DNA of 63,205 bases, taken from Opitutia bacterium. Its GTDB lineage: Bacteria; Verrucomicrobiota; Verrucomicrobiia; Opitutales; Opitutaceae. Below are positions 26,782-61,721 of the stretch, in pieces. The DNA lies in contig JACPIS010000033.1 in assembly GCA_016187925.1 (NCBI GenBank), positions 1 through 63,205 of the forward strand, written 5' to 3'. The translations under genes and the position numbers were made by a program. Every line of letters starts with the position of its first letter. The stretch's first letter is position 1. Under the pieces are notes generated by a model that ran no database searches, was not told where the DNA came from, and saw only the letters and a program-made list of their open reading frames with translations.

Positions 26782-26906
26782 GCGACTTGGCGCAGAATTA
26801 TTTTTTCGGGCCGCGTTGGCGCGGGGCAGAGCGGGGCGGGTTTTCACTCGGCGGCGGGCCGGCCCGGGCGGAGACGAAAATCCGCCGAAAATAGCCTCTG
26901 AAAGAT

Positions 26907-26933
26907 TTAACTTCCGGCGGGGCGTGCCGATGA
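26907..26933 (+). promoter_or_regulatory. sigma-28 promoter for fliD
   Basis: TTAACTTC-N11-GCCGATGA, 7/8 match in the -10. Predicted +1 is ~26940, 30 bases before the fliD ATG. The rest of the 319-base gap between flagellin and fliD holds only this and the divergent flagellin promoter. Confidence 0.78.
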
Positions 26934-49118: not shown

Positions 49119-51503
49119 CTATTGCCAGCCGAGGCGGGAGGAGCGGGCGTGGGAAGAATCGGAGTCATGGGCATGGGGGGTGGGCTCAGGCCCACGCGAG
49201 CGGGCGTTCAGGGCATCAACTGCGCGTGACAGCACTTGGTGCAGGTCGACCGCGCGCAGCGGTTTCGGGACGAAGTCATCCATGCCCGCACTGGCGCATT
49301 GGGCGCGATCCTCTTCGAGTGCGCTGGCGGTGAGGGCGACAATATAGGGGCGTTTCCCGTTCCGCCCTTGGTCTGCCCGGAGACGACGGGAGGCCTCCCG
49401 GCCGTCCATTTCCGGCATCTGCACGTCCATCAGGATGACATCGTAGTCGGCGAGACGGACGGCTTCGAGCACCTCGCGGCCGTCGCCGACGACGGCCGGG
49501 CGGTAGCCGAGCCGTTGGAGAAGACCGAGGGCGACCTTTTGGTTTACGAGATTGTCCTCAGCGAGCAGGATGCGCAAAGGGCTCGCGAGTTGGGGCGGGA
49601 ACGCATCGCCGGCCACCGGGACGGATCGTTGAACCACAGGCTCGCCGAGGGTGCGATGCAGCGCGCGCAATAACTGGGCGGGCTTGACGGGCTTGGCGAG
49701 GACCTCGCTGAACAACCCGCGCACGGCCGGTTCGACATGGGGCCCCGAGGAACTCAGCAGCACGAGCGGCAGGCCGGCGGTGCGGGGGTCCGCGCGGAGG
49801 TGGCTGGCGAGTTCGGCACCGTCCAGGTCGGGCATGTGCAGGTCGACTATGGCGCAATCCGGATTGCCCGAGCGGCGCAGATGCACGATGGCTTCGGCGC
49901 CGCCCGCGCAGGCATGGACGCGGGCTCCCCAGCCAATCAACAGGCGCGAGAGGATGAGGCGGTTTGTCGGGTTGTCGTCCACCACCAACATCCGCCGGCC
50001 GGCGAGGAGCGATTCGGGCAACGGATCGGAACAGTTGGGCGCGGGCAGCGGCAACTCCGGGAGAGTCACGGAGAACGAGAACGTCGTGCCCCGGCCCGGC
50101 GTGCTCTCGACTTGGATGCGGCCGCCCATCATTGATACGAGGCGCTGGCAGATGGCCAGTCCGAGGCCGGTTCCGCCGTAGCGCCGCGCCGTTCCGGCGT
50201 CCACTTGGCTGAACGACTTGAACAACCGGTCCATCCGCTCGGCGGGAATGCCGATGCCGGTGTCGCTGATCTCGAATTGCAGCGTCACCTGATCGACGCC
50301 CAGCGTGCCGGTCGCAGCTTCGCGTGGCGCCGGCTCGCCGGCGATGCGGCGCACACGCACCACGACCTCACCGGCCTCGGTGAACTTGACGGCATTGCCG
50401 ACGAGATTCACGAGCACTTGGCGGAGACGGGTGACGTCTCCCTCGAGTGTGGCGGGCACGTCGTCCTCAATCGACGCAGCGAGATCGAGGCGTTTGGGCG
50501 CGGCCGCGGGGACAAACAGATCCAGGGCGGATTCGACGCAGTGGCGCAGATCGAAGGGCTGGTGCTCCAACTCCACCCGCCCGGCCTCGAGTTTGGAGAA
50601 GTCGAGGATGTCGTTGAGGATGGTCAGCAACGCGTCGCCGCTCGTGCGGATGGTCTCGATGTAGTCGCGCTGCTCGGGTGTGAGCTCGGTGTCGGCCAGC
50701 AGGTCGGAAAGGCCGATGACCGCGTTCATCGGCGTGCGGATCTCATGGCTCATGTTGGCGAGGAACTCGCTCTTGGCCCGGGCGGTGGTTTCGGCGTGCT
50801 CCTTGGCCCGGCGCAACTCGTCCTCGATGCGCTGGCGTTGCGTGGCGTCGCGCACGACTGCGACCATGATGGTCGCGCCGTCCACCTCGGCCTTGGCGAT
50901 GGAGATCTCCACCGGCACCTCGCTGCCATCCTGGCGGAGGCCGGGCAGGGTGTTGCGGTCGTGCATGGAGCGCGCGGTCGTGGCGCCGCGGGCGAAGCCG
51001 CGGAGGTATTCATCGTGTCCCCGGGCCACCCGCTCGGGCAGGAGGAGGTTGATGGAGCGGCCGACAATCCCCGCGGAGGCGTAGCCGAAGATCTGCTCGG
51101 CGCCGCGGTTGAACTCCAGGATGCGGCCGCGCTCGTCGGTGACGATGACGCCGTCGGTCGAGATGGCGAGGATGGCGGCGGTGCGGGCGGCGAGTTGCTC
51201 GTGCTCGGTGGTGCGGATGCGCCGGGCGAGATACCGGGTCAGCAGCCAGAGAGCAGGGCAGAGCAACAGGGCGAGCGACAGGGAATCGACCAGGGCCTCC
51301 TGCCACGGAGGGAGCGACGGCAGGCGGGCCAGCACCAGCATGATGAGTCCTTCGCAGGCGACGATCAGGAGGAGCAATCCGCCGAAGAGGGACGCAACCG
51401 GATGTCGCGTTAAGGGTGCCGGGGCGAGCCGGGTGGCGAGCCGGGACACCTGTGTCACCGGGCAGCGGCCGGGCGGAGGAACGGGGATTTCAGGGGTGGG
51501 CAT
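49119..51503 (-). CDS. Membrane PAS hybrid kinase with two receivers (BarA-like)
   Basis: 794 aa from the ATG at 51503. Two membrane helices at ~37-60 and ~70-92 with a very short periplasmic loop, PAS at ~105-222, HisKA with H253 in [12 protein letters not shown], HATPase ~350-485 ([16 protein letters not shown]), receivers at 502-615 (D554) and 643-760 (D693). No Hpt domain is attached, so phosphate must go to a separate Hpt. It is the last gene of the porin-receptor-kinase operon, starting 70 bases after the chemoreceptor stop, under the sigma-28 site at 54785-54811. Confidence 0.92.
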
Positions 51504-51573
51504 GATGGGGAGGGGGAATCCAGCCAAGATGCAGAGAAGGCGTGCGGCATCTCGGCGGGATTTTCGGGACGGG

Positions 51574-53205
51574 TCAGAGGTCCCGGAAATGATGGTCGTG
51601 ACTGCCGTCGTGCCCGTTGGTGGAGAGGACCGCGCTGGTTTGGCGGGTGCGGGTTGTGAGGACAGGCGTCTGCACCGCGTTGGCGGAACCGTGTCGACCG
51701 GGGAGCGGCCCAAGGTTGGAGGACGGCGCCTTGGCGCGCGATTTTTCCGGAATGCCGGCCGGCGGGGCCTCGCGGTGCGAAGTGGCACCGGCGAGGGCGG
51801 ACAGATAGGACACCGACTCTTTCAGCAGGGCGGCCTGCGAATTGAGCTCTTCCGCGGCGGCGGCAGTTTCCTCGGCGTTGCCGGCGTTGGTTTGGGTGAC
51901 CTGATCCATCTGGGTGACGGCGGTCGTCACCTGGCCGATGCCCTGACTCTGCTCGCCGGAGGCAGTGGCGATGTCGGCGACCAGCTGATCGAGCTGGCGG
52001 ATGCGGGTCTGGATGTCTTCGAAACTCTTGGCCGCCCCGGCGCTGATCTGGACGCCTTGCTGGCTCTTGACCACGGAGTCCTCGATTTTCCCGGCGGTTT
52101 CCCGGGCGGCTTGGGCGGCGCGTTGGGCGAGGCTCCGGACCGCGTCGGCGACCACGGCGAAGCCCGCGCCCGCCTCGCCGGCGCGGGCCGCCTCGACGGC
52201 GGCGTTGAGGGCGAGGATGTTGGTCTGGAAGGCGATCTCATCGATGGTTTTCAGGATCTTGGTGATATCCTCCGAGGCGCGGCTGATGTCCTGCATGGCG
52301 GTCTGCATCGCGTTCATCTGTTGGGCCCCGGCATCCGCTGCGGTGCGGGCCTGGCTGGCGGCTTGCTTGGCCTGCTGGGAGCTTTCGCTGTTGCGCTTGG
52401 TCATGCTGTTGAGCTCCTCCAGCGAGGCGCTGGTCTCCTCGAGGGAAGCGGCCTGCTCGCTGGCGCCTTCGGCGAGAGACTGGCTCGAGGCGGAGATTTG
52501 CTGCGCGGCGGCGGCGGTCTGGGTGCTGGCGGCGTCGATCTGGCCGATGGCGTCGCCCAGGGCGCGGTTCACCCCGCGGGTGATGAAGACCCCGATGCCC
52601 GAGGCGAGGACGGCCGCCACGAGGAGGCCGGTGACGATGCCGGTTTGGGCGCTTTGCACCGAAGCGTTGATGGCGGCGCCGGAGGTTTCGCCGTCGTCCT
52701 TGTTATGTTCGACGACTGCATCGATCGCCCGGTCAAAGGCGCCGAAGGCCGGCTCCATCTTCTGGCGGAGATGGCCCATGGCCTCGCTGTCCTTCCTCTG
52801 CTCGCTCAGGGCAATCAGCGCCTTGAAGGCGGTGACGTATTCGGCCCGGCGCGCGGCCATCGCTTCGTAGAGTTCCAGTTCGCGGGAGTCTTCGATGGTG
52901 GGCTTGTAGTCGTCGAGCAGCTTGGAGATGGTGGCGACGTTCGTCTGGATGGCCGCGAGATGGGCGCCCTTCTCCTCGGTGGAGTCGGACAGCACGTGCT
53001 TGAGCGTGAGGATGTAGTTTTTCTCCGCCAGGTTGGAAACCGTGGTGATGGTCGAGAGGCCCGGGAGGGCGTTGGTCGTGATCTGATGGGAGTTGCGCTT
53101 GATGGCAATGAGCTGGGTGTAGGCGAAGGCGCCGAGTGTCACGGCCACCGCGATGGTGGCGCAGAAACCGAGCGCGATCCGCTTTCCGATGGTCCAGTTT
53201 TTCAT
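51574..53205 (-). CDS. Methyl-accepting chemotaxis protein 2
   Basis: 543 aa from the ATG at 53205, which gives the typical MCP start [16 protein letters not shown]1 ~9-30, a helical periplasmic domain to ~185, TM2 ~190-212 ([20 protein letters not shown]), then a rod with the tip [18 protein letters not shown]. Periplasmic sensors in all three receptors differ, but MCP1 and MCP2 are related. The C-terminus is His/Asp-rich ([11 protein letters not shown]) and could serve as a tether. It lies between the porin and the kinase genes, 49 bases after the porin, so the three are co-transcribed. Confidence 0.93.
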
Positions 53206-53254
53206 GGGATGGGGTGGAGTTGTGTTGGTGGGATTGACGAAAAAGGGCGGCGCC

Positions 53255-54667
53255 TCAGAAGCGGTAGAGCGCCTGGGCGTAGGCGAAGGCGACAGCGTCG
53301 CTCCGGCCGGTCTGGCGGACGAAGGAACCCGCGAAGAAGCGGTTAAGGCCGGCCTCGAAATTCCAGTGCGCGTCGAAGGCGTAGTAGACCGTGAGGTCGA
53401 TTTCGCTGCCGATAGTGCGACTGAGGCCGGCGCCGGCGGGTCGGACGACGACGGCGCCCGCATCGTAGAGGGCGTCGGCCGCCTCGGCGCGGGTGAACCG
53501 GTGTGCGACGAGTTGCAGACGCATTCCTTTGGCCGGCTTGAGTTCGAGACTGGCGTTCCACGCACTGATATTCTGCCGGCCGACGAGATCGACGTATCCG
53601 AGAAAGGCGTGTCCCAGGGGGTAGAGCTGGTCGAAGGTGCCGATACGGCGGTCGGTGGGATTCTCGTCGCCGCTGGCGTAGTCGAAGCCGGCGGCGAAGC
53701 GCGGCTTCCAGGCGAGGCGGGCGGCGGTGTAGCCCAATTCGGAGCCGAGCATCCAGGCGCGCACCGGTTTGCCGGCCAACGATCCCCTCTGGATTGCCGC
53801 CTCCAGATCGAATTCCCAGTTGCCGGCCGGTCTGCCGGTGCGGCGGAAACCGAAGGTTTGCCGCCGATCCTGCGCCACCGGGCGGTCGCGGACGAGCAGA
53901 TACAATTCGGTGCTTCTCCGGAAAGTGACGTAGGTGCCGTAGAAACGCTCATGGCGGTTGCGCCGGTCGGTGGCGTATTTCTGGACGGGCACAAACCAGC
54001 TGTAGAATACCGTGGCCCTGGCTGCCGGGGATTCGCAGAGGCCGGCGGCCCCATCCCAGTGGCGGTAGGTGTTCAGCCAAGGCAGCGGACTGACCAGACG
54101 CTGCCGGCCGAAGGAGAATTGCTGCCGGCCGAGACGCAGCGTCAGCCGACGGGCATCGATGGTCGTTGAGAAATCGGCGAAGGCGTTGAGCAGTTCCCGC
54201 GAATTGACATCGGCGGCGCGCGTCCCTCCGGGGAGGGCGCGGCGGCCCAGCATCCGGGCGTCGATCAACTCCGCAAAAAAGCGCGCGGTGGATCCAAACC
54301 GCAGGTCGGCGTGCAGTTGGATGCGCCCGAGGCCGAAGTCGTCTTCCGGTGCCGCGGGCGTGCCGAAAGCGAAATTGCGCCATGTTTCCCAACGCCAGCG
54401 CGCTTGACCGCCGAGACTCAACCACGCGCGGCTGGCGTCGCCGAGTGCGATGAACTTGAGCGGATCGAGCATGTCGTCCGCGGGTCGCCCCCGCAGAACA
54501 TCCCAGTTCTCCTCGAAACGGAGCACCTGGTAGGCGGGTCGGACCGCCCTCGCTGGCGGGCGGTCTTCAGCGACGGCCAGACCGACGGCCAGAGACAGCA
54601 GAAAGACTGGCGCGCAGTGGCGCGCGGGGAAGGGGCGGGCGGGAGACTGGGGAAGCGGAGCGGGCAT
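53255..54667 (-). CDS. Alginate-export-type outer membrane porin
   Basis: 470 aa. Signal peptide at ~1-34 ([16 protein letters not shown]). The rest alternates polar and hydrophobic residues as in beta-barrels and ends in Phe (AQALYRF), the usual outer-membrane sorting signal. Segments such as [35 protein letters not shown] and [15 protein letters not shown] fit the alginate-export (AlgE) porin family. Transport of a specific sugar is unproven. It is first in an operon with a chemoreceptor and kinase, behind the leader RNA element A and a sigma-28 site, so the porin is made with late flagellar genes. Confidence 0.86.
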
Positions 54668-54702
54668 GGAAGCGGCAGGCCACGGTCCAATGGACCGGCT
54701 TG

Positions 54703-54778
54703 GCGTCGCTTCCTATCCTTGCAGGCCGCATTGCCTGCCCGAATCGGCGGCCATGCTCGGGGCATGCCGCAACGCTTG
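54703..54778 (-). ncRNA. Candidate leader RNA, copy A
   Basis: On the minus strand the predicted +1 coincides with the start of a conserved block: outer stem P1 GCGTTGC/GCGACGC, hairpin P2 GGCATGC..GCATGGCC with one bulge, and P3 GCAGGC-AATGCG-GCCTGC. Just after it a further hairpin CGGTCCATTGGACCG lies before the porin ATG (54667). Copy B at 56970-57045 shares P1 and P2 almost base for base, while P3 differs with compensation. It contains AAGGA, so it could also gate ribosome access. No match to a known riboswitch that I recognise. Confidence 0.68.
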
Positions 54779-54784
54779 CTCATT

Positions 54785-54811
54785 TCTTCGGCCTTGGGGA
54801 GTGAAGGTTAA
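54785..54811 (-). promoter_or_regulatory. sigma-28 promoter for porin-MCP-kinase operon
   Basis: Minus strand TTAACCTT-N11-GCCGAAGA, exact spacing, 5/8 and 6/8. Predicted +1 is 54778, the first base of leader element A. Confidence 0.68.
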
Positions 54812-54814
54812 GCA

Positions 54815-54879
54815 CTCATTTCAAAAGCTGTCAGGGCGAGGAGTGCCCGGGCGGCGCGACAGGATGGTTTTGAAATGAG
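54815..54879. repeat. TTTCAAAA inverted repeat, copy 2
   Basis: CTCATTTCAAAA and TTTTGAAATGAG are perfect 12-bp inverted arms, with GCTGTC/GACAGG continuing the pairing. Related to 42095-42196. It sits just upstream of the promoter of the porin operon. Confidence 0.62.
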
Positions 54880-54998
54880 CGCCCAGCGGAGGGTTGAGCT
54901 GGGCGCAAGATGCCCGCGGAGTGTCGGCTCAGACCGCGCCGCTATTTGCGCCGGTGCGCGGGGATGGACGGGCGCACCTCGCGTTGTGCCGGGTACTC

Positions 54999-55146
54999 AG
55001 AGCCTACCCGAAAAACTGGGCGTGCGGCGATGCGCCTTGGGCAGGGCGAAGCGTCCCCGCCGAGCCGCGGCGCGCCGGGACGGCGATCAGGGCGTCAGCC
55101 TTGGCTGTTCGCCCGACCCGTCGGCCGGGATATCCGGACAGGCTCT
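54999..55146. repeat. MITE-like element, copy 2
   Basis: Terminal repeats AGAGCCTACCCGAAAA and TATCCGGACAGGCTCT are imperfectly inverted and match copy 1 at 35183-35307. The 148-bp element abuts the stop codon of the minus-strand chemoreceptor gene, so its arm could act as a terminator for that gene. Confidence 0.78.
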
Positions 55147-56837
55147 TATCGCACTTGGAAGAAATCGTCATGACGGGCGTCGATTGATCCGGGGGCATCG
55201 AGCGCGGCGAGGCGATTTTTGCCCGGGGCCGGTTTGATCGCTGCCAGGTTATTGGCCTGATGGGCCGGAGTGGAGGCGCGTGGCGCGGCGGGTTGCCCGG
55301 CTCCATCGACCAAGGCTTGGAAATCGCCCACGAGCCGTTGGAGTTCGGCGGACTGCGCGTTGAGTTCCTCGGCGGCGGCGGCGGATTCTTCCGCGCCGGA
55401 AGCGTTGGATTGCGTGACCTTGTCCATTTGGGCGACGGCACCGTTGACCTGGCCGATGCCTTGGGTTTGCTCGGCGGATGCGGTGGCGATCTCCGCCACG
55501 AGGGTATCGACCCGGCGGGCACGTTCGAGGATGACCTGGAGGGAGTCGGCCACCTTGGCGGAAATGCTCACGCCGTGTTCGCTTTTGACCACCGAGTCTT
55601 CGATCTTGGCGGCCGTTTCCTTGGCGGCCTGGGCAGAGCGCTGGGCCAGGGCGCGCACCTCTTCGGCGACCACGGCGAAGCCGGCGCCGGCCTCGCCGGC
55701 CCGGGCGGCCTCGACCGCCGCGTTCAGTGCGAGGATGTTGGTCTGGAAAGCGATTTCGTCGATGGTTTTGACGATCTTGGCAATCTCGCCGGAGGAGTGC
55801 TTGATGGCGTCCATGGCGCCCTTCATCACGGCCATGTCGGCGGCGCCGGTATCGGCGGCGCTGCGCGCCTGGGCGGCGAGGTCCTTGGCCTCGCCGGCGC
55901 TCTCGGCATTGCGCTTGGTCATGCTGGATATCTCCTCGAGCGAGGCGCTGGTCTCTTCGAGGGAGGCGGCTTGCTCGCTGGCACCCTCGGCGAGGGTCTG
56001 GGCGGCGGCGGAGATTTGACCGGCGGCGGAGGAGGTTTGCTGCGCGGAGGCGGCGATTCGGGAAATCGCCAGGCCGAGCGGCTTGTTCACGAAGTGGCGG
56101 TTGAAGAAGTAGAATCCCGTGACGACGAAACCCAGGAGGGCGAGGCTGACGAAACTCATGCTCTTCATTGTCCGGGTCACCACTGCGTCGTTGGTCAGTG
56201 GCGCCCGCAGCACAAACGCGCCTTTGATGTCGCCTTGCTTCATGTTCTCCATGGCGAAGCCGAGGAGATCCCGGCCATCGCCGGTCGGGCTATGCGCCGG
56301 ATCGCCGTGGCAGGTGAGGCAGCCCTCGGCCAAGCGCACCGGTCGTGCCAGGATCAGGGTGTTTGTTTTTCCGTCGTGCTTGAAATACTCCGGTATGCCG
56401 GAGGCGAAAGCCTGGAAAGCATCGGCGAATTCCGCGCCGTTGTTGTTCTTCGCATTGCGCGCGGTCAGATCGGGGCGGGAAGGCGTGAAAAAATCGTAGC
56501 CTTCATCGCGGGCGGATTTTTCCGCCGCCTGCCAGGAGGCGACGATGGGTATGGCGTTGTAGAGCGAGGTGCCGCGGTAGGTGTCGTGCAACGGCCGGTC
56601 GCCGCTCTCCTGCTTCGCCCGGGCCACCATCCCGGCCATGTCGAAGGATTTTTGGCGGTGCATGGCTTCCATCTTTTCCGCGACGGTTTCCGCCTGCTTG
56701 AGCACGACGGACATCTGGTGGCGCAAGGCATCGATTCGATTCTTCGACGACAACCAATAGACGGTGATGGTGCCGCCAATCGCGGTGGCGACGACGGAGA
56801 TCGTGGCCGCGATGATGATTTTGGAGCTCAGTTTCAT
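55146..56837 (-). CDS. Methyl-accepting chemotaxis protein 3, haem-type sensor
   Basis: 563 aa from ATG 56837, which gives [20 protein letters not shown] as TM1; an in-frame ATG at 56921 would add 28 polar residues. The periplasmic sensor (~35-245) contains CLTCH (C173, C176, H177), a c-type haem site, in a DUF3365/Tll0287-like setting ([20 protein letters not shown]). TM2 ~250-272, then the signalling rod with [19 protein letters not shown] haem sensor suggests redox, O2 or NO taxis. It has a sigma-28 site and leader element B upstream; the leader is 208 bases to this start and 124 to the alternative. Confidence 0.92.
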
Positions 56838-56969
56838 GACGGGGCGTGGTTTCTCGGGTTGGGGGCTGAATGGCGGGCGCCGACAGCGGTCTTGGCCGGG
56901 GGCTGCGGTTGGCGCGCTCATGGGTACAGGCGTGACTGAAAGGGCTGGGGCACCGACTCGGGGTCGGTC

Positions 56970-57045
56970 GCGTCGCTCCTTTCCTTACAGATCCGAAAAA
57001 TCTGCCCGAATCGGCGGCCATGCGCGGGGCATGCCGCAACGCTTG
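56970..57045 (-). ncRNA. Candidate leader RNA, copy B
   Basis: Same layout as copy A: +1 at the first base, P1 GCGTTGC/GCGACGC, P2 GGCATGC..GCATGGCC, and P3 GCAGAT-TTTTCGG-ATCTGT. Compared with A, the P3 pairs G-C and C-G become A-U and U-A, and an outer G-C becomes G-U, so pairing is kept while sequence changes. A separate hairpin ACCGAC-CCCGA-GTCGGT follows at once. It precedes the haem-type chemoreceptor gene. Confidence 0.68.
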
Positions 57046-57051
57046 ATACCT

Positions 57052-57078
57052 ATTTCGGTCCGCGGCCGGGAAAGTTTA
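57052..57078 (-). promoter_or_regulatory. sigma-28 promoter for haem-type receptor
   Basis: Minus strand TAAACTTT-N11-ACCGAAAT, exact spacing, 7/8 and 5/8. Predicted +1 is 57045, the first base of leader element B. Confidence 0.68.
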
Positions 57079-57169
57079 GCGTTTTTTTGCGGAAACGAAG
57101 TCGGCCGGCCCAGGCGGACCGATCAACCCGTTTGCAGCCCCCAATCGGACACACCCGGTCGTGTCTCCG

Positions 57170-57847
57170 TCACGGTTCGCCCATGCCGGCGAGCACGCGC
57201 TCGAGCCGCTGGCGCAAATCTCTCAGCTCCTTTGAGCGAAAGCTGCCCTTTGTCTTTTCCAATGTGGTTATCGTTTCGGTGAGCACTTGCCGAAGAAGAG
57301 GCTGCCCATGAAGCGTGGTCGCCGAACGAGGGTGCGGTGCTGCGGCACGGGCTAGCTTGCCCGCGAGGTCGGAGAGCGGGTCGGGCAGTAGTCCATCCGC
57401 GTTGGCGCCGGGTTGGCCGCGCTCCGCCAGCATCTGCCGGATGGAGCGTACGCAATCGGCCAGTTCCTCGCGGTGGCGGCGTTCATCGAGCAGGCGCCGA
57501 AGAGCCTGGCCGAGCAGGGCGTAGTTGGGCGGCTTGAGCAGGTAGGCGGCCACGGGCAGGTTGGCGGCCCGCAATGCCGTCTCCAATTCCGGGTTGCCCG
57601 TCAGGAGTACGACGGCGGGTGCATCCTCGCGGGCCAGCAAGCGCTCGATCCACTCCAGCCGCATATTTCCGGGCATATGGATATCGCTCAGGATCAAAGC
57701 GTATTTCTCTGCGTCCAGACAGCGGTCGGCCTCGGCCGTCGTGGCGGCGGAGGTCACGAGAAATCCGGACCGCTCCATCCAACAGTGCAGCGCCAACCGG
57801 CTCGTCTCATCGTCATCGACATGGAGGATACGCTCGGTGGCTGGCAT
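57170..57847 (-). CDS. Response regulator with helical C-terminus
   Basis: 225 aa. Receiver ~5-122: ILHVDDDETSR, acceptor Asp in LILSDIHMPGNMRLEW, VVLLTGNPELE and the Lys in YLLKPPNY. The C-terminal ~100 residues are helical and end TLEKTKGSFRSKELRDLRQR, with no DNA-binding motif. It probably acts by protein contact in the chemotaxis or kinase network. It is followed on the minus strand by the region with sigma-28 site and element B, and preceded by cheW, also on the minus strand. Confidence 0.86.
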   Translation of the reverse strand: MPATERILHVDDDETSRLALHCWMERSGFLVTSAATTAEADRCLDAEKYALILSDIHMPGNMRLEWIERLLAREDAPAVVLLTGNPELETALRAANLPVAAYLLKPPNYALLGQALRRLLDERRHREELADCVRSIRQMLAERGQPGANADGLLPDPLSDLAGKLARAAAPHPRSATTLHGQPLLRQVLTETITTLEKTKGSFRSKELRDLRQRLERVLAGMGEP

Positions 57848-57939
57848 GGCTGGGGTAAATCAAAAATGCGCCTGTTGGCGCACGAGGAAAGACAAAAGCC
57901 GCGGGATTCACGCCAAACCAACACCCCGTCCAGGCAGAA

Positions 57940-57967
57940 CCCGGTGTCCGCTGAGCGGAGCACCGGG
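57940..57967 (-). terminator. Possible cheW terminator hairpin
   Basis: CCCGGTG and CACCGGG with inner TCCGC/GCGGA form a stem about 30 bases after the cheW stop. No strong T-tract follows on the minus strand, so efficiency is uncertain. Confidence 0.45.
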
Positions 57968-57999
57968 CGTTTCTTAACCCCTGCTGACAAAATGGGTGC

Positions 58000-58509
58000 T
58001 TACGCCGGCTGGGCGATGGCCTGGATGGTCTCGGGCGCGACGACGCGGTCGATGTCGAGCAACGTCTTCACCTGCCCCTTCACCTTGGCCATGCCGAGGA
58101 GATAGGTGGTGTCGATCTTGGCGCCGAACTCCGGCGTCGGCTCGATTTCTTCGCTGGTCAGGTTCACGACTTCCTCGACGGAGTCGACGATCAGGCCCAT
58201 CTGCACGACCTGTTCGCTCGGCAGCTTGACCTGGACGACCACGATGCAGGTGCGTTCGGTGAACTCGGACTTCAGGCCGAACTTCACGCGCAGGTCGATG
58301 ATCGGGATGACACGGCCGCGCAGGTTGATGACGCCCTTCACGAAGGAGGGGACCTGCGGCACCGGGGTGATCTTCTGCATGCGGATGATTTCCCGGACCT
58401 TGAGGACAGCGATGCCGTAGGCCTCGTTATCGAGGACGACGGTCAGGTATTTGCCGGCGTTTTTCTGGACGACGGCAGAGGTGGAAGAAGTGGCAGGGGC
58501 GGAACTCAT
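58000..58509 (-). CDS. cheW: Chemotaxis coupling protein CheW
   Basis: 169 aa from the ATG at 58509. CheW features: KYLTVVLDNEAYGIAVLKVR, ITPVPQVPSFVKGVINLRGR and VIPIIDLRVKFGL, and a C-terminal LLDIDRVVAPE. It couples receptors to CheA in the array. The open frame continues far upstream antisense to cheA, but this Met, the family length and the promoter at 58548-58574 fix the start. It is divergent from cheA, each with its own sigma-28 site. Confidence 0.95.
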   Translation of the reverse strand: MSSAPATSSTSAVVQKNAGKYLTVVLDNEAYGIAVLKVREIIRMQKITPVPQVPSFVKGVINLRGRVIPIIDLRVKFGLKSEFTERTCIVVVQVKLPSEQVVQMGLIVDSVEEVVNLTSEEIEPTPEFGAKIDTTYLLGMAKVKGQVKTLLDIDRVVAPETIQAIAQPA

Positions 58510-58547
58510 GAGTGGTGGTTTACGAAGAGGGGATCGGCCAAGCAGGC

Positions 58548-58574
58548 ATATCGGCGCAACCCTCCCCGGCTTGA
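58548..58574 (-). promoter_or_regulatory. sigma-28 promoter for cheW
   Basis: Minus strand TCAAGCCG-N11-GCCGATAT, exact spacing, -10 7/8. Predicted +1 is ~58541, 32 bases before the ATG. Confidence 0.7.
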
Positions 58575-58603
58575 GGGAAACCGCGCCAAAACCGGGTCCA
58601 AGG

Positions 58604-58630
58604 TTAAGTTTTTCCCGCCGGGACCGATTA
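58604..58630 (+). promoter_or_regulatory. sigma-28 promoter for cheA
   Basis: TTAAGTTT-N11-ACCGATTA, exact spacing, 7/8 and 6/8. Predicted +1 is ~58637, 20 bases before the cheA ATG. Confidence 0.78.
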
Positions 58631-58656
58631 AAGCGGGACAGCTGCACAACGCTTCT

Positions 58657-60825
58657 ATGCCCCTTGCTCCGGAATCCTTCCAGGCGCTCGACGACGCTCT
58701 TAACCGTCTCGCCGCCGAATCCATCCTCGCCGCCCCCGGGCGTGACGAGGGCCTCATTCCCTCCTACAGCCTGCTGGGCGAAGTGCGCGACCTCTGCGCG
58801 CCCGAGCCGGTGCTGCACGCCGCCATCGTGGCCACGCACGCGCTGCTCGAGCAGCGGCTCGACACCGCGCAGCCGTTCGACGAGCCCACGCTGGCCAGGC
58901 TCCGTCAGCTGATCGACTGGCTGCCCGGCGCCCTCGCCAAGATCAAGGCCGGCGCGGCCCCGGCGGCCTTCAACGCGTCCGCCACCCCGACGGCGCCCGC
59001 CGCCGCGGCTCCCGCCTCCGGCGAGGCGGCTCCGGTGGCCGACGTGCTGCTCGACCTGAATCTCGCGGAGAACCAGGAACTGCTGGGCGAGTTTTATGCC
59101 GAGGCCGTCGACCACCTCCAGCAGATCGAGGCGGCCCTGCTCATCCTCGACCAGCAGGCCGACAATCCCGAGGCGCTCAACTCCATCTTCCGCTCGTTCC
59201 ACACCATCAAGGGCAACGCCGGCTTCCTCGGCCTCGTGCCCATGCACACGCTCGCCCACGAGGTCGAGTCGCTGCTCGATCTCGCCCGCAACCGCGAGCT
59301 GCTGCTCACGCCGGCCATCATCACCGAGATCCTGCGCAGCCGCGACGCCCTGCAGGCACTCACGCAGCAGGTGGCCGTCGCCCTCGAAAAAGGCCAGCTC
59401 CCGAGCCAGATCGTTCCCGTCAGCCATCTCATGCGCGCGGTCAAGAAACTCGCCGTGCCCGACGCCAAAGGCGCAGCCCCCGCCGAGATTCCGGCGGCGC
59501 CTGCGTCCGCGGCCCCCGCGGTCGTGGCCAGCGCGCCTGCCCCGGCGCCGGCCGAGGCGCCGGCGGTCGCCCCGGCGGCTCCGTCTCCCGCGGCGCCCGC
59601 CGTCCCGCACGTTTCCGCGGCGGCCGCCAACGCCATCGAGGCGCAGGCCACGGGCAAGGCCGCGGCCGGCAACCAGACCGTGCGCGTCAACACCGAGAAA
59701 CTCGACTCGCTCATGGACGTCGTGGGCGAACTCGTGATCGTGCAGAGCCAGCTCATCGAGTCGGCCCGCGCCCAGGGCGACGCCGGTTCTCCGCTCCAGC
59801 GTAACGTCGCCCAGCTCTCGCGCATCACGAAGGAGCTGCAGCACACCGCGATGTCGCTGCGCATGATCCCCATCAAGCCGACGTTCCAGAAGATGGAGCG
59901 CCTCGCGCGCGACCTCGCCCGCAATTTCGGCAAGAAGGTCCACTTCCAGGTCAGCGGCGAGGATACCGAACTCGACCGCACCGTCGTCGAGGAGATCGGC
60001 GATCCGCTCGTGCACATGGTGCGCAACTCCCTCGATCACGGCCTCGAGCCGCCCGAGGAACGCACGGCCGGCGGCAAGGGCGAGATGGGCACCATCCACC
60101 TCAGCGCCTACCACCAGGGCAGCAACATCGTCATCGAACTCAGCGACGACGGCCGCGGCATCAACCCGGACCGGATCTACAAGAAGGCCGTCGAGAAGGG
60201 CATCGTCGCCCCCGGCGCCCAGCTCACCCGCGACGAGATCCTCGCCCTCATCTTCGCCCCCGGCTTCTCCACCGCCGAGAAGGTCACCGCCGTCTCCGGC
60301 CGCGGCGTCGGCATGGACGTCGTGAAGCGCAACATCGAGAAACTGCGCGGCAAGATCGAGATTTCCTCCGAGGTGGGCAAGGGCTCGACCTTCAAGATCA
60401 AGCTCCCGCTCACCATGGCCATCATCGACGGCCTCGTGGTGCGTGTCGGCGCCGACCGTTTCATCCTGCCCAGCACCTCCGTGCAGATGGCTCTGCGCCC
60501 GCCGCGCGAGGCGATCACCACCGTGCACGGCCAGGGCGAGGTGCTCGAGCTGCGCGGCCGCATCCTGCCGCTGCACCGCCTGCACCGCCGCTTCGGCATC
60601 CCGGCCGACGCCCAGCAGCCGTGGGACGGCATCGTCGTCATCGTCGAGCACTCGGGCCGCGTCTCCGCGCTGCTCGTCGACGAGATGGTCAGCAAGCAGG
60701 AGGTCGTCATCAAGAACCTCGGCGCCTTCATGCAGGGTCTGCCCGGCGTGGCCGGCGGCGCCATCCTCGGCGACGGTAACATCGCCCTCATCCTCGACCC
60801 CGGCACGCTGTTGCACGCCGCCTGA
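58657..60825 (+). CDS. cheA: Chemotaxis histidine kinase CheA
   Basis: 722 aa. Residues 1-98 are an extra helical N-terminal region not usual in CheA. The Hpt (P1) domain follows with H182 in FRSFHTIKGNAGFLG. A long Ala/Pro linker (~268-315) joins dimerisation and HATPase (~340-590; DPLVHMVRNSLDHGLEPPEE, DDGRGINPDRI, GRGVGMDVVK) and a C-terminal CheW-like domain. CheY/CheB-binding P2 is not evident. It phosphorylates CheY-type partners. It is followed by an HDOD gene 11 bases downstream. Confidence 0.95.
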   Translation: MPLAPESFQALDDALNRLAAESILAAPGRDEGLIPSYSLLGEVRDLCAPEPVLHAAIVATHALLEQRLDTAQPFDEPTLARLRQLIDWLPGALAKIKAGAAPAAFNASATPTAPAAAAPASGEAAPVADVLLDLNLAENQELLGEFYAEAVDHLQQIEAALLILDQQADNPEALNSIFRSFHTIKGNAGFLGLVPMHTLAHEVESLLDLARNRELLLTPAIITEILRSRDALQALTQQVAVALEKGQLPSQIVPVSHLMRAVKKLAVPDAKGAAPAEIPAAPASAAPAVVASAPAPAPAEAPAVAPAAPSPAAPAVPHVSAAAANAIEAQATGKAAAGNQTVRVNTEKLDSLMDVVGELVIVQSQLIESARAQGDAGSPLQRNVAQLSRITKELQHTAMSLRMIPIKPTFQKMERLARDLARNFGKKVHFQVSGEDTELDRTVVEEIGDPLVHMVRNSLDHGLEPPEERTAGGKGEMGTIHLSAYHQGSNIVIELSDDGRGINPDRIYKKAVEKGIVAPGAQLTRDEILALIFAPGFSTAEKVTAVSGRGVGMDVVKRNIEKLRGKIEISSEVGKGSTFKIKLPLTMAIIDGLVVRVGADRFILPSTSVQMALRPPREAITTVHGQGEVLELRGRILPLHRLHRRFGIPADAQQPWDGIVVIVEHSGRVSALLVDEMVSKQEVVIKNLGAFMQGLPGVAGGAILGDGNIALILDPGTLLHAA

Positions 60826-60836
60826 GTTTCTCCGCC

Positions 60837-61721
60837 ATGTCCACCGCCGCGCCCCAGCCGCCGTCCATCGACCAGGTTTGCGAGAAATCGCTCCGCCTGC
60901 CGTGTTCGCCGTCGCTGCTGCCGCGGCTGGCGCTGGCGCTGCAGAGCGACGAGAGCTCGGCCGCCGAGATCGAGCGGCTCATCTCGCTCGATTCCTCGCT
61001 GGCCGCCGCGACGCTGCGCCTGGCCAACTCGGCGGCGTTCTCGCGCAGCGGCATCGATTCGCTCGAGGAGGCGGTGTTCCGCCTCGGTGCGAAGGAAATC
61101 TACCGCCTCGCCGCGCTCGTGCTGGTCAACCGCTGGGAGAGCGGTTCCAACGTCCTGCTCCGCTGGGAGCCGGGCGACTTCAGCCGCCACGCGCTTTGCA
61201 CGGCCATCGCCGCCGAGGTGCTGGCCGAGGCCACCGAGCGCATCGACCCGCAGGCCGCCTACACGGCCGGACTCGTCTGCGACCTGGGCAAGCTCGCCCT
61301 CGCGCACATCTGCACCGAGCACTACCCGGCGGTCCGCGCCTTCTGCGAGCAGACGCACTGCACGTGGGAACAGGCCGAGCGCACCGTGCTGGGCTACCAT
61401 CACGGCGACGTGAGCGTGCGGCTGCTTACGGCTTGGAAATTTCCCGCGAGTTTCATTCAGGTCGCGCAGCACATGATGCATCCCACCGAGGCCCCCGCGG
61501 CCGTGCTGCCGCTGCTCGCGCACCTGCACGCCGCCAAATACCTCGCCACCGCCATGGGCCCGGGTGTGACGGAGGACGGTTTCCTCATCACGCTGCACGG
61601 CGGTTTCCTCCGCGAGTGGGGCTTCACGCCCGAGATGCTCGAGGAAGCCATGCCCATCGTGCTCGAACGCGCCTCCCAGCGCCTCGGCGAAAAACTCTCC
61701 CACGGCCCGGTCTCGATCTGA
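60837..61721 (+). CDS. HDOD domain protein downstream of cheA
   Basis: 294 aa. HDOD pattern: LISLDSSLAAATLRLANSAA, SLEEAVFRLGAKEIYRLAA and the degenerate TAGLVCDLGKLALAH. The start is 11 bases after the cheA stop, so it is co-transcribed and under the same sigma-28 promoter. This is the third HDOD gene of the window, all with late flagellar expression by context, which suggests HDOD proteins are part of chemotaxis signalling here. Function is inferred. Confidence 0.88.
   Translation: MSTAAPQPPSIDQVCEKSLRLPCSPSLLPRLALALQSDESSAAEIERLISLDSSLAAATLRLANSAAFSRSGIDSLEEAVFRLGAKEIYRLAALVLVNRWESGSNVLLRWEPGDFSRHALCTAIAAEVLAEATERIDPQAAYTAGLVCDLGKLALAHICTEHYPAVRAFCEQTHCTWEQAERTVLGYHHGDVSVRLLTAWKFPASFIQVAQHMMHPTEAPAAVLPLLAHLHAAKYLATAMGPGVTEDGFLITLHGGFLREWGFTPEMLEEAMPIVLERASQRLGEKLSHGPVSI

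Follow-up and report, generated by a model that had tools for sequence, protein, structure and literature searches.

Our analysis identifies a structured leader RNA, probably cis-regulatory, which we class as new and do not assign to any described riboswitch family. Its fold is about 75 nt long and comprises helix P1, a P2 helix that carries a bulged purine, and a long P3 built from P3a, a CGG/AAG internal loop and P3b. The RNA was found in two copies in the window (the whole 63,205-nucleotide stretch of contig JACPIS010000033.1 from an Opitutia bacterium that was analysed) and in relatives, mostly behind sigma-28-like promoters and before genes for chemoreceptors and related proteins. On balance we lean towards a leader RNA class that works like a riboswitch. 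A more specific proposal, which we regard as plausible while stopping short of calling it probable, is a new riboswitch class at the predicted +1 of sigma-28-type transcripts; it would respond to a signal inside the cell and so determine, once the motility sigma factor has acted, which chemoreceptors and porins are produced by a motile cell.

A first-pass annotation of this DNA had placed two copies of a structured element on the minus strand, and both are present where it put them (Table 1). Its description of P1 and P2 matches the sequences of both copies, and its account of P3 was confirmed: GCAGGC/GCCTGC in copy A and GCAGAT/ATCTGT in copy B differ by double changes at two pairs and a G-C to G-U change at a third. 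One addition and one correction follow. A hairpin (P4) does directly follow each core and the two are unrelated in sequence between A and B, as claimed, but the hairpin of copy B is clearly related to those of two copies from the same genus. The strands J2/3 and J3/1 are not free; they pair with each other as P3a around the conserved CGG/AAG loop. Copies A and B are the only ones found in the 3,995,137-base genome. Taken singly, their folding energies are modest (z of -2.4 for A and -1.3 for B), and the case for the fold was therefore tested on relatives and rests on them.

Table 1. Coordinates of the leader RNAs, their promoters and the genes behind them in the window
Feature	Position	Strand	Remarks
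Leader RNA core, copy A	54703..54776	minus	P1 54775-54769 with 54709-54703; P2; P3a; CGG/AAG loop; P3b
Leader RNA core, copy B	56970..57043	minus	
Hairpin P4, 3' of copy A	54683..54697	minus	CGGTCC-ATT-GGACCG
Hairpin P4, 3' of copy B	56952..56968	minus	ACCGAC-CCCGA-GTCGGT
P5 alternative helix, 5' arm, copy A	54707..54713	minus	GGAAGCG; overlaps P1 3' strand
P5 alternative helix, 3' arm, copy A	54668..54674	minus	CGCTTCC; immediately 5' of porin ATG
P5 alternative helix, 5' arm, copy B	56978..56983	minus	GAAAGG
P5 alternative helix, 3' arm, copy B	56938..56943	minus	CCTTTC
Sigma-28-like promoter, copy A	54787..54812	minus	CTTAAC ... GGCCGAA; pattern match
Sigma-28-like promoter, copy B	57054..57079	minus	CTAAACTTT ... 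GGACCGAA; pattern match
Porin, Alginate_exp PF13372	53255..54667	minus	first gene behind copy A
4HB_MCP_1 / MCPsignal chemoreceptor	51574..53205	minus	second behind copy A; start taken at MKNWTIGK... within ORF 51574-54054
Hybrid histidine kinase, PAS and two receiver stretches	49119..51788	minus	third behind copy A; 5' end of the ORF runs into the MCP gene, true start internal
Tll0287-like MCP	55146..56921	minus	behind copy B; ATG 56921 or, by relatives, 56837

A DNA search added two further full copies in one genome of the same genus. A search of 252 genomes of the family (Opitutaceae) with covariance model R1, built on four copies, found carriers in 13 of them, with 20 places at E<1e-4; model R2, built on 21 sequences, gave 16 genomes, with 25 places at E<=0.05. 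The working set holds 28 distinct members, all with an R2 E<=0.0013, from those 16 family genomes, one genome of another family in the same class (G696, two copies) and one MAG contig (L112, CALMEZ010000317.1, labelled Alphaproteobacteria, one copy). The longest ORF of the L112 contig is SecA-like in our own reading and ends before the element; the contig is perhaps misbinned or chimeric. Surveys of 372 genomes of the order, 315 of the class and 288 of the phylum, in overlapping samples and under strict filters, added only G696, the sole carrier among 39 genomes of its family. A pattern scan of genome contigs gave 15 matches, of which five are members by R2 (four from Opitutus/Opitutia MAGs and one from a contig labelled Alphaproteobacteria) and eight gave nothing at E<=1. 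Two Paraburkholderia loci (29.7 and 24.6 bits; E 0.0027 and 0.025) were rejected, since they lie inside a long ORF and no promoter was seen. Beyond the 28, the promoter and the CGG-P3-AAG core are also present in two provisional members, G136 (L121) and G129b (L131), whose scores fall under the threshold; one of the two adds a 17th genome of the family. Weak R1 matches in G207, G163, G214 and G116 were dropped, being without a promoter and absent from the R2 list; the other R1 places above E 0.03, including G008:C40, which was viewed, are likewise absent from that list. Weak matches L119, L120, L122, L124, L126, L127, L129 and L130 were dropped after inspection of their sequences, and L123, L125 and L128 (the start of G008:C91) stand outside the member set. 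The resulting distribution is sporadic, with the element in 16 of the 139 family genomes that carry MCPs, a count to be read with search filters that lose weak matches. MCPs occur in all 16 element-bearing family genomes, against 139 of 252 in the family overall, and the window's genome has seven MCPsignal matches listed against two elements. The covariance search that the first-pass annotation had proposed as a check brought up more copies, most of them before mcp or related genes and with further compensatory change; it did not return copies mainly in coding or random intergenic DNA, nor a fold lacking additional compensation.

Comparison of the members supports the fold. In the alignment fitted to the model, 95.1% of 697 cells are paired, as against 44.9% for the best slid version of the fold, both partners change in 16 of 25 pairs, and none of 500 shuffles scored as high on any of five measures. 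Because such an alignment leans towards the structure, we ran our own R-scape-like test, a G-test with APC in which substitutions are redistributed along a FastTree tree to give a phylogenetic null. Five pairs passed at E<0.05 and all five lie inside the fold. With a structure-blind MAFFT alignment of the 28 members three pairs pass, every one in P3b, and ranks 4 to 6, below significance, are two P2 pairs and one P3a pair. RNAalifold, given 20 MAFFT-aligned members, recovers P1, P2 and P3b and puts a short local helix in place of P3a. Within P3a, CC/GG shows four and one C-G to U-A changes at its two pairs and is followed by U-A and U.G; a further position has double changes in 11 of 21 sequences and is unpaired in 6 of 21. 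The CGG/AAG loop is probably a C-G pair plus tandem G.A. The family thus presents what is looked for in a riboswitch, namely a conserved fold with covariation in 5' leaders.

The positions conserved outside the helices fall mainly in one internal loop and one bulge, and they bear on how the RNA might be read. With J2/3 and J3/1 mostly paired, the fold offers no open junction that would make an obvious ligand pocket. Internal loops and bulges are typical protein sites, and in a serious rival explanation, which we nevertheless consider unlikely, an RNA-binding protein recognises the bulged purine of P2 and the CGG/AAG loop and gates chemoreceptor translation. A leader bound by such a protein accounts for much of the same evidence as the riboswitch-like reading, and the narrow taxonomic range suits a lineage-specific protein; against it, no candidate protein was identified.

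The predicted promoters link the fold to sigma-28-type transcription. The sigma-28 consensus is TAAAGTTT-N11-GCCGATAA, and the sites upstream of the members, compared with it, approximate CTAAAGT-N14/15-CCGATA. Scored with a pattern that was written after the upstream sequences had been viewed, 25 of 28 members have a sigma-28-like -10 box ending 8-13 nt 5' of the core, compared with 41 of 4866 positions drawn at random from these loci. The members that do not match this pattern are G007b (a CTACAG variant), G277 (17 nt away) and G696a (none). For copies A and B the boxes end 10 nt upstream of the core, which agrees with the earlier claim that the cores begin at the +1, itself a prediction. 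Other sigma-28-like sites in the window carry no such leader: one at 26906-26931 (plus strand) before fliD, one at 58575-58550 (minus strand) before a gene that we read as cheW-like and one at 7134-7109 (minus strand) before an HDOD gene. The element is therefore not simply part of the promoter. Hairpin-forming repeats beside a promoter can also be operators, and the inverted repeats could in principle be bound by a regulator as DNA. We judge this extremely improbable: the asymmetric bulge, the U-G pair in P1 (17 of 28 members), the mismatched internal loop and the variable loop lengths speak against it, as do the recurrent position just 3' of the predicted +1 and the sense orientation of the 22 members with a Pfam-recognised first gene.

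These 22 of the 28 members lie in sense before a first gene that Pfam recognises, and in 16 of the 28 the first large gene contains MCPsignal (B, G002a, G001b, G001d, G018, G001e, G008, G007a, G039, G007c, G006, G129a, G174, G054, G001c and G183b). The remaining recognised first genes encode the porin of copy A, part of a carbonic anhydrase (G158), an MCP-like sensor (G010), a receiver (G217), a PAS protein (G696a) and CheW (G696b), those of G158 and G010 being cut by locus or contig ends. Proteins of 431 aa without a Pfam match follow the element in G001a and G007b and lie upstream of a second element with an MCP; in G183a a 71-aa ORF comes before a second element with an MCP. The DNA of G002b, L112 and G277 ends too soon to identify the first gene. 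Among the provisional members, G129b precedes a Porin_O_P gene and G136 a protein without a Pfam match. No flagellin was seen among the element-led genes. In the window, the contexts are those described before: copy A leads the Alginate_exp porin, the MCP and the hybrid kinase, and copy B leads the Tll0287-like MCP, whose sequence contains CxxCH and which is perhaps haem-binding. A chemotaxis cluster at 57170-61721 adjoins both element-led operons; it encodes a CheA that has Hpt and CheW domains, together with one receiver and one HDOD protein. Elsewhere, four chemoreceptors of 821-837 aa, each behind an element, combine a beta-carbonic anhydrase (Pro_CA) near the start with MCPsignal near the end (L072:169-2652:-, L075:2928-5399:-, L076:2671-5133:- and L079:3473-5983:-), and these could possibly be receptors for CO2 or bicarbonate. 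With 25 of 28 members behind sigma-28-like promoters, most of them before mcp or related genes, and with covariation in the fold, the idea of a structured leader RNA of sigma-28 chemoreceptor operons is supported.

Downstream of the core the leader suggests how the RNA could act. A P4 hairpin tends to adjoin the 3' end of the core (mean z -1.25, n=30, against -0.25, n=29, at a control site; taken one by one, 7 of the 30 fall below 0.05). In addition, many members have a second possible partner for the purine-rich 3' strand of the core (AGGA-GCGAC), namely the stretch of leader close to the start codon; in copy A, GGAAGCG faces CGCTTCC-ATG. We call this alternative helix P5. Against composition-preserving dinucleotide shuffles its signal is weak (mean z -0.47; the two control segments gave -0.33 and -0.06), since purine tracts will pair with pyrimidine tracts in any case. 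In a permutation test devised after the shuffle test, true partners form 6.20 contiguous pairs against 5.25 for permuted partners, a value reached in 0 of 5000 permutations, while two control segments gave P of 0.21 and 0.38. Omission of G174, G277 and the provisional G136 and G129b leaves P at 0.013 to 0.022 by length and 0.0008 by energy. P5 is not evident in G001b, G007a and G010. In G174 and the provisional G136 it takes the form of a long hairpin followed by a U-run, and G277 is similar with a weaker U-tract; a terminator pattern scan did not call the hairpins of G174 and G136, since its rule allows only loops of 3-8.

The same leader contains a recurrent start. The first ATG lies at +33 to +48 after the core in 16 of 30, compared with a shuffled mean of 2.5 and maximum of 10, for an interval chosen after viewing. 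Short ORFs of 25-90 aa begin at +33 to +44 after the core in L073, L077, L080, L112 and L092, a spacing that matches that of the real genes in other members, and are possible leader peptides. Shine-Dalgarno-like words are not enriched before ATGs in the window and 13 loci (10 of 90 ORFs, as against 10 of 90 in the background), and none precedes the 28 element-led first ATGs, the first ATG not always being the gene start. Models in which P5 hides a Shine-Dalgarno sequence or bridges it to the ATG are thus not favoured, and masking of the start region or termination is preferred.

We envision a scenario in which a ligand or partner stabilises P1 and P3. The stabilised fold would keep the purine strand off the downstream leader, so that the start region stays open and receptors are made; in two members it would prevent a terminator-like hairpin from forming. 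When the ligand or partner is missing, P5 would form and enclose P4, and the start region would be masked or transcription ended. As the fold and P5 compete for one strand, we favour a switch of the riboswitch type with the stabilised fold as the ON state. This polarity is drawn from the terminator-like members and could be different in others. From the gene context we would guess at a small molecule connected with motility or with life on surfaces, for example a cyclic dinucleotide. The recurrent short distance to the first ATG would also fit the RNA-binding protein discussed above; the alternative helix, terminator-like in two members, suits a ligand switch, although a protein could use this helix too.

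Two further explanations turn on this part of the transcript. CsrA is a usual post-transcriptional regulator of motility and might bind the GGA-rich 3' strand (AAGGA..GGAG). Its gene is found in 17 of the 18 element-bearing genomes searched (G136 counted), and the final 24 nt of the core contain one GGA or more in 26 of 28 members. Yet CsrA is about as common in sampled genomes in which the element was not found (24 of 28), G696 has two copies of the element and no CsrA match in a genome that is 95% complete, G174, G001c and the two provisional members have no GGA within that stretch, and the sole GGA of G277 lies in P3b. Such a site would moreover leave the covariation of P2 and P3 unexplained, and we consider it improbable. 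Slightly less credible still is a released 5' small RNA of about 110-120 nt, ended by the P5 hairpin and acting on other messages. The element's start near the predicted +1 and the P5 hairpins with U-runs in G174 and the provisional G136, together with the weaker case of G277, would fit such an RNA, but no such U-run follows P5 in other members, the first ATG lies 33-48 nt behind the core in 16 of 30, and 22 of 28 members sit in sense just 5' of a Pfam-recognised gene. The first-pass annotation had named a riboswitch, a released small RNA and a translation gate as options; among them, the alternative helix near the start codon, with its U-run in two members, favours a switch.

The annotation could not assign the element to GEMM or another known riboswitch, and our searches agree. 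Rfam 15 at the gathering score, run on the window and eight further loci, gave no match at the element, the window's two matches being rRNA genes. At E<=10 the window region gave two chance-level matches elsewhere and none at the element; at E<=1, 13 relatives gave none at the element and one match to a microRNA model, far below the cut-off and away from the element. A known Rfam family was accordingly rejected, and at the level of titles and the openings of abstracts we found no published description of the element. The c-di-GMP-I (GEMM) and c-di-GMP-II riboswitches are leader RNAs upstream of motility and membrane genes, class I forming a three-way junction. Like them, the element is a leader RNA of motility-related genes; unlike them, it has a different sequence signature and helix plan, in addition to lacking an Rfam match. 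It resembles the orphan riboswitch candidates and the structured leader motifs that comparative-genomics surveys have reported, likewise covarying folds in the 5' leaders of functionally related genes, yet it differs from these by having a single type of promoter, sigma-28, upstream of a fold that sits at the predicted +1, and by its association with chemoreceptors. The CsrA-regulated hag leader of Bacillus subtilis offers an analogy, with GGA motifs and what may be a comparable post-transcriptional control of transcripts of the motility sigma factor; in contrast, GGA is not universal in our element, which has a conserved multi-helix fold and leads mainly receptors and porins.

Discussion of what sets chemoreceptor levels has centred mostly on promoters and on the motility sigma factor. 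If our reading is correct, the messages of receptors and porins carry a dedicated RNA layer, absent from the window's sigma-28-like promoters of fliD and the cheW-like gene, through which the cell would tune sensing separately from swimming. The family also provides a ready target of about 75 nt for ligand screening in vitro.
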